A stretch of 64,000 nt of DNA from Pyrococcus kukulkanii (GTDB lineage Archaea > Methanobacteriota_B > Thermococci > Thermococcales > Thermococcaceae): the NCBI RefSeq assembly GCF_041647995.1, contig NZ_JARRIB010000002.1, positions 62,001 through 126,000 of the forward strand, written 5' to 3'. Of the stretch, positions 40,992 through 41,792 are shown piece by piece (position 1 is the first letter of the stretch; every line of letters starts with the position of its first letter). The notes under the pieces were generated by a model. That model saw only the letters and a program-made list of their open reading frames with translations, made no database searches and was not told the origin of the DNA. The position numbers and the translations under genes were made by a program.

Positions 40992-41792
40992 ATGAGAAGG
41001 TTTTCCCTCATTATTGTAGCAATCCTTGTGCTTGTTTTAGCGTTCATCCCTTTATTTAGGCAACAGAACCCAGCTAGGCAACAGGAAGGTGGGAACAAAA
41101 TAACCATTGTTTATGACAACAAAGCGTTGAGCGGCTTTAAGGGTTCATGGGGATTCGCCGCACTTGTGAAATTCAAAAACTACACGATTCTTTTTGATAC
41201 CGGGGGTGATGGCGAAATTCTGCTTAGTAACATGAAGAAGCTTGGCATTGATCCAAAGTCAATTCAGTACATTTTCCTATCTCACATTCACGGAGACCAT
41301 ACCGGTGGATTGTGGGCAATTTTAAAAGAAAACTCAAATGTGACAGTATTTCTCCCAAGTATCTTCCCAGATGGTTTTAAAGAAAAAGTTCGAAGCTTTG
41401 GGGCAAAGGTCGTTGAAATTTATGAACCCAAAGAAATTTTGGAAGATATTTACACTACTGGAGTAATGTTTCCGGTAGGAGAGCAGGCTCTAATCTTGAA
41501 GACTTCAAAGGGCTTAGTTGTAGTAGTTGGGTGCTCTCATCCTGGGATAGTCAAGATAGTAGAGAGGGCAGAGAATATAACGGGAGAAAATGCTTACTTA
41601 GTTGTTGGGGGCTTTCACTTATTTGGAGCCCCAGAAAGAGAAATCAGGAAAATAGGTACAAGCCTCAAAAGGCTGGGAGTTCAAAAAATTATGCCCTGCC
41701 ACTGCACCGGAAGCAAAGCAGAGGATATTTTTGCGGAGGAGTTTGGAACGGATTACATAGAATGTGGTACTGGGAAAACTATAAGCTGGTGA
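40992..41792 (+). CDS. Metallo-beta-lactamase fold hydrolase inserted in the cas operon
   Basis: 266 residues. A hydrophobic segment at about 4-22 (signal anchor) precedes an MBL domain. Metal ligands are intact: His98, His100, Asp102 and His103 in [11 protein letters not shown], His183 in VGCSHPG, His209 in GGFHLFG, and His237 in PCHCTG. This layout resembles the subfamily that includes the MBL-fold methanopterin-precursor synthase-like proteins (DHPPP synthase-like), not RNase or cyclic-oligonucleotide nucleases. It is cotranscribed with cas4 (9 bp gap, GAGGTGG site) and cas1 (4 bp gap). A role in immunity is only suggested by position. It may be a passenger gene. Confidence 0.85.

Follow-up and report, generated by a model that had tools for sequence, protein, structure and literature searches.

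Accessory genes in CRISPR operons have a precedent in the Sulfolobales, where toxin-antitoxin pairs are interspersed in cas cassettes (PMC4390879). The locus described here, part of a 64-kb window (the whole stretch of DNA analysed), offers a similar arrangement in the Thermococcaceae, with a gene for an MBL-fold hydrolase between cas4 and cas1 and, at the identical junction in seven other genomes, a MazE/PIN pair. Unlike the Sulfolobales pairs, the MBL gene stands alone, encodes an enzyme and shows no features of a toxin-antitoxin system. A second point of comparison is the C-terminal extracellular MBL domain of ComEC, a Mn-dependent nuclease whose substrate in natural transformation is the incoming DNA (PMC8579336). 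Our protein is likewise predicted to be an MBL-fold phosphodiesterase located outside the cytoplasmic membrane, although the ComEC domain belongs to a bacterial DNA channel and the likeness is one of fold and predicted location. Closest of all are phosphodiesterase TW9814 (PDB 7DCK) and the metal-dependent hydrolases 3H3E (Tm1679) and 2P4Z, which have the same fold and residue set. What sets the Thermococcaceae proteins apart from these is a predicted signal anchor, three sequons and a location in a cas operon.

Like the type I-B Cas4 and Cas1 proteins, the MBL protein is encoded in the same operon, in the same direction and with tight spacing (Table 1); unlike them, it has an unrelated fold and a predicted location on the other side of the membrane, and it is dispensable and separately mobile. 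The original prediction had described a gene wedged into the cas4-cas1 interval, 9 and 4 bp from its neighbours, with its own GAGGTGG site and a hydrophobic N-terminus, and all of these features were confirmed. With GAGGTGG at the cas4 stop and GGTGAT overlapping the MBL stop, MBL and cas1 each have their own Shine-Dalgarno-like site; GAGGTGG also precedes cas1 at many empty cas4-cas1 junctions. Downstream of cas1, the window harbours effector genes of a type I-A-like set (csa5, cas7 and others, with names assigned by comparison) and a cas2 gene on the opposite strand. Beyond this cas2 lies a CRISPR array with a 30-nt repeat, starting at about position 50,098 of the window and comprising some 72 or more copies of GTTCCAATAAGACTAAAAGAGAATTGAAAG.

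Table 1. Positions of the MBL gene, its motifs and its neighbours in the 64-kb window.
Feature	Position	Strand	Remarks
Type I-B effector genes cas6, cas8b1, cas7, cas5, cas3	34022..40459	+	Upstream, same direction
cas4	40434..40982 (stop 40980-40982)	+	PF01930, E=4e-58; 3' end is the left arm common to MBL cassettes
GAGGTGG ribosome-binding site	40981..40987	+	Overlaps cas4 stop
MBL-fold hydrolase gene	40992..41792	+	266 aa, ATG start; Pfam Lactamase_B E=1.7e-13, 51.4 bits vs cut-off 22.7
Hydrophobic signal anchor, residues 4-22, after MRR	41001..41057	+	Mean Kyte-Doolittle 3.12 over 19 residues
N-X-S/T sequon N63	41178..41186	+	Invariant in 11 orthologues
HxHxDH metal motif (H98, H100, D102, H103)	41283..41300	+	Invariant over 33 diverse relatives, kept in 7dck
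N-X-S/T sequon N116	41337..41345	+	Invariant in 11 orthologues
Other invariant His H183, H209, H237	41538, 41616, 41700	+	Invariant over 33 diverse relatives, kept in 7dck
N-X-S/T sequon N195	41574..41582	+	Invariant in 11 orthologues
cas1, type I-B Cas1b	41797..42765	+	cas1_HMARI / TIGR03641, E=7e-134; ATG at 41797

The Lactamase_B match above the cut-off and the invariant HxHxDH motif place the product among the MBL-fold hydrolases, and its predicted structure is a confident MBL fold (AlphaFold, AF2; pLDDT 93.4). The best Foldseek match is 7dck, phosphodiesterase tw9814, with a TM score of 0.94, an rmsd of 0.9 over 235 columns and 38% identity; the sequence match to the same protein has an E-value of 7e-51. 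These full-length matches of sequence and fold, together with the same invariant residues, assign the protein to the TW9814/Tm1679-type group. Every invariant residue of the family is common to 7DCK, and the motifs found in both are HxHxDH, GC(S/A)H, GGFH and HC. The claim that all MBL metal ligands are present stands for HxHxDH, H183 and H237, which are invariant; no bridging Asp of the kind typical of MBL enzymes is evident, and the position has an invariant GGxH (G206, G207, H209) instead. As 7DCK is the best structural match and has all the invariant family residues, phosphodiesterase appears to be the likeliest activity of the protein, the activity of 7DCK itself being known from its PDB title. 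In searches with NCBIfam profiles no model reaches its cut-off, and PADLOC profiles give just weak, partial matches. This agrees with the earlier statement that the protein is not a known Cas protein, as does the lack of any mention of it as a Cas protein in the literature searched, a scope that leaves aside the neighbourhood lists of Shmakov 2018.

The N-terminus is of the same type in all full-length members of the orthologue group, with a charge of +2 on its N-side, MRR or MKK followed by 19 strongly hydrophobic residues. Lipobox-like sequences (LPGC and LGC) are present in the nearest relatives, those of G018 and G046, and many bacterial relatives have signal-like N-termini as judged by eye. 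The sequons N63, N116 and N195 are found in 11 of 11 orthologues and in none of nine leaderless paralogues; their number in a single sequence is borderline against shuffles (p about 0.05), and conservation is the stronger point. Given the signal anchor, the lipobox-bearing relatives and the invariant sequons, the anchor is probably of the N-in/C-out type, which would place the catalytic domain outside the cell.

Close orthologues are present in 10 of the 94 Thermococcaceae genomes sampled, and one further genome has a 63% relative. Sixty cas4|cas1 junctions were readable in these genomes. Nine of them, from nine species and four genera, contain an orthologue (80-96% identical); the tenth orthologue, in G019, lies in a relic of the same junction. 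The search of cas4-cas1 loci proposed with the original prediction thus found the gene at the same position in eight other species, against the refuting case named there, in which all other genomes would lack it at this position. Wherever both sides are readable its spacing is identical, with 9 bp to cas4 and 4 bp to cas1; in G116 a contig end cuts the gene and its cas4 side. The upstream effector modules of the carriers vary, with I-B in G000, G003, G034, G069 and G029 and other sets in G025, which indicates that MBL goes with the adaptation junction and not with one effector type. Chance placement is ruled out by the nine close orthologues at an identical junction and the relic state of the tenth, and the identical junction in nine species likewise rules out an ordinary chromosomal gene that sits beside cas without a conserved position.

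The remaining junctions show that the site may hold other contents. Seven have inserts of 692-697 bp, another seven have inserts of 164-174 bp, and the other 37 have little or no insert. One 697-bp insert encodes two proteins matching MazE_antitoxin (E=4e-15) and PIN (E=2e-20), and the other long inserts are similar by DNA; a MazE-type antitoxin/PIN toxin pair of about 0.7 kb is thus found at the junction in G030, G095, G075, G064, G089, G112 and G077 (including loci L067, L070 and L072). The short inserts, found in seven further genomes, may be remnants of this pair: they hold a small ORF, which in the three frames that were read resembles the C-terminal part of the antitoxin, and a Pfam search of this ORF gave no match. 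Empty junctions often have TTTGAGGTGGTNNNATGAGAAAG at the cas1 start, and filled junctions have TTTGAGGTGGTTCTATGAGAAAG at the MBL start in G003, G069 and G106, with a nearly identical sequence in the window. From these sequences, insertion looks seamless, with the cas1 start repeated at both ends.

Several lines of evidence indicate that the MBL gene has a history of its own. In the cas1 tree, which leaves out the broken row of G012, the MBL-bearing rows do not form one clade: well-supported branches force at least six changes, and a one-clade tree is rejected (AU p 1.1e-5). Between genera, the synonymous difference pS is mostly 0.27-0.59 for MBL vs about 0.70-0.92 for cas1 and mostly 0.6-0.9 for cas4, with an exception of 0.39 (G106/G029). 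A leaderless chromosomal MBL paralogue served as a control for the codon habits of the enzyme family; between genera g1 and g2 its pS is 0.75-0.89 vs 0.40-0.44 for MBL. The GC3 of MBL is 0.41-0.56, while that of the carriers' cas1 genes spans 0.40-0.77. Third-position identity is high across MBL and extends to the left: in the last 30 codons of cas4, 67.7% of third positions are identical among carriers vs 46.8% in carrier/non-carrier pairs (23 non-independent pairs). At the cas1 start it is not raised (47.6% vs 47.2%). The simplest account of these patterns would be repeated transfer, between distant cas operons, of a piece comprising the cas4 3' end and MBL, and the arm shared by the carriers may be read, among other ways, as transfer to the left together with cas4. 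In the close species pairs G000/G003 and G036/G116, MBL was inherited with cas1. The pairwise dN/dS of MBL is near 0.1, and the gene is thus under selection.

At the relic junction of G019, an intact MBL is flanked by decayed remains of the cas4 3' end and of the cas1 start, cas1 itself was not found, and the genome keeps the glycosyltransferase and ABC transporter genes that flank the cas locus of its relative G025. Of the changes unique to this MBL gene, five are silent and two replacement, a split with a binomial p of 0.013 under a neutral guess of 3:1; some of these changes may be older than the loss of cas. We favour the view that the gene is kept for its own sake over the alternative that cas was lost too recently for decay.

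Taking these observations together, we consider it likely, on the strength of the sequence comparisons, that MBL is a horizontally mobile cargo gene for a surface-anchored phosphodiesterase, residing in an insertion slot of the adaptation operon and acting independently of spacer acquisition. The passenger reading put forward at the outset is in line with this, given the absence of the gene from most cas4-cas1 operons, its horizontal exchange and its retention after cas loss. MBL would have been joined at the cas1 start with a ribosome-binding site kept on each side, and would presumably be co-transcribed and translated from the cas operon mRNA. Homologous recombination would move copies between distant cas operons, taking along the cas4 3' end and ending at or near the cas1 start, as silent-site identity suggests. 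The product, to judge from topology, sequons and fold, would be an outward-facing, signal-anchored MBL-fold phosphodiesterase, and would most probably hydrolyse an extracellular phosphodiester (nucleotides, DNA or a surface ester) to the host's own benefit, apart from spacer acquisition. A core Cas adaptation protein would be expected in most operons and to be inherited with cas1 and cas4. The gene occupies 9 of 60 junctions, and the cas1 tree, the silent-site divergence and G019 all speak against co-inheritance. As for a virus or plasmid origin, no match was found in phage records and no close match in plasmids or viral contigs. Nevertheless, bar one relic and one 63% relative, the close group occurs strictly at this junction; a random passenger would be less tightly confined, and the pattern could reflect a link to CRISPR.

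Such a link might take the form of a CRISPR accessory acting from outside, with an antiviral value and a functional place in the operon: as a phosphodiesterase or nuclease on the cell surface, it would cut the DNA of incoming viruses or plasmids, or alter a virus receptor. The near confinement of the close group to the junction over four genera with varied effector modules, the predicted topology and the precedent of the ComEC domain are consistent with this. Most cas4-cas1 operons do without MBL, however, the gene outlasts cas in G019, and no cas genes were detected by tblastn with the window's Cas proteins near relatives outside the Thermococcaceae (37 loci, up to 6 kb examined), a search that distant Cas proteins could escape. 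All in all, we regard this explanation as unlikely. By analogy with ComEC, a more specific version would have an outward-facing nuclease process or destroy incoming DNA, thereby feeding or shielding adaptation, with the slot holding exchangeable defence modules; we give it a slim chance. The proposal of a membrane-associated prespacer nuclease, or of another protein that works directly with Cas4 and Cas1 to acquire spacers, draws on the place of the gene between two adaptation genes and the conserved tight spacing. The predicted topology speaks against it, since the active site would lie outside the cell, apart from Cas4 and Cas1. The absence of MBL from 51 of 60 junctions, its persistence without cas in G019 and the nearest structure, a phosphodiesterase of a broad family occurring away from CRISPR, also make it very unlikely.

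Cleavage of cyclic nucleotides is known for MBL-fold enzymes, Apyc1 among them, and the protein has an Apyc1-like fold and matches the Apyc1 model weakly, below the cut-off. It could be a ring-nuclease-like degrader of cyclic oligoadenylate or of another CRISPR nucleotide signal, as the original prediction allowed. Yet Cas10 matches occur in only 2 of 10 carriers, with none in the single-contig carriers G069 and G029, and Cas10 and MBL are not associated (Fisher p 0.31). As most carriers lack Cas10, cyclic oligoadenylate is an unlikely substrate; the domain is, moreover, on the predicted wrong side of the membrane, and we find this role extremely improbable. That MBL instead belonged to the adaptation operon of ancestral Thermococcaceae, was inherited vertically and was lost in most lineages would account for the identical junction structure in all carriers and for the joint inheritance with cas1 in the two close species pairs. 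It is hard to reconcile with a silent divergence between genera far below that of the flanking cas genes and the chromosomal paralogue, or with a GC3 range much narrower than that of the carriers' cas1 genes, and is highly improbable.

The Thermococcaceae adaptation operon has a precise insertion slot, which may carry the gene for a probable surface hydrolase, a toxin-antitoxin pair or no insert at all, and whose contents pass between genera faster than the cas genes do. Operon position alone is a poor guide to function in such a case. The filled, empty and relic sites of related species represent a natural experiment on how cas operons gain, trade and lose accessory genes.

Other genes were also observed around the junction. 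An archaeal ATPase_2 gene (e.g. L034:6497-7663, L191:10767-11873 and L192:2408-3514) lies directly before cas4 in 4 of the 9 MBL carriers; of 54 non-carrier records, 12 have it near cas4-cas1. Several loci (L034:9971-10663, L193:1753-2448) have a second PD-(D/E)XK nuclease gene (PF12705) after cas1. Both genes are present with and without MBL, and a link between MBL and either of them was rejected. Finally, the cas1 gene of G006 (C1:802315-803287, L190) is apparently broken, with two overlapping frames and an internal TAG.
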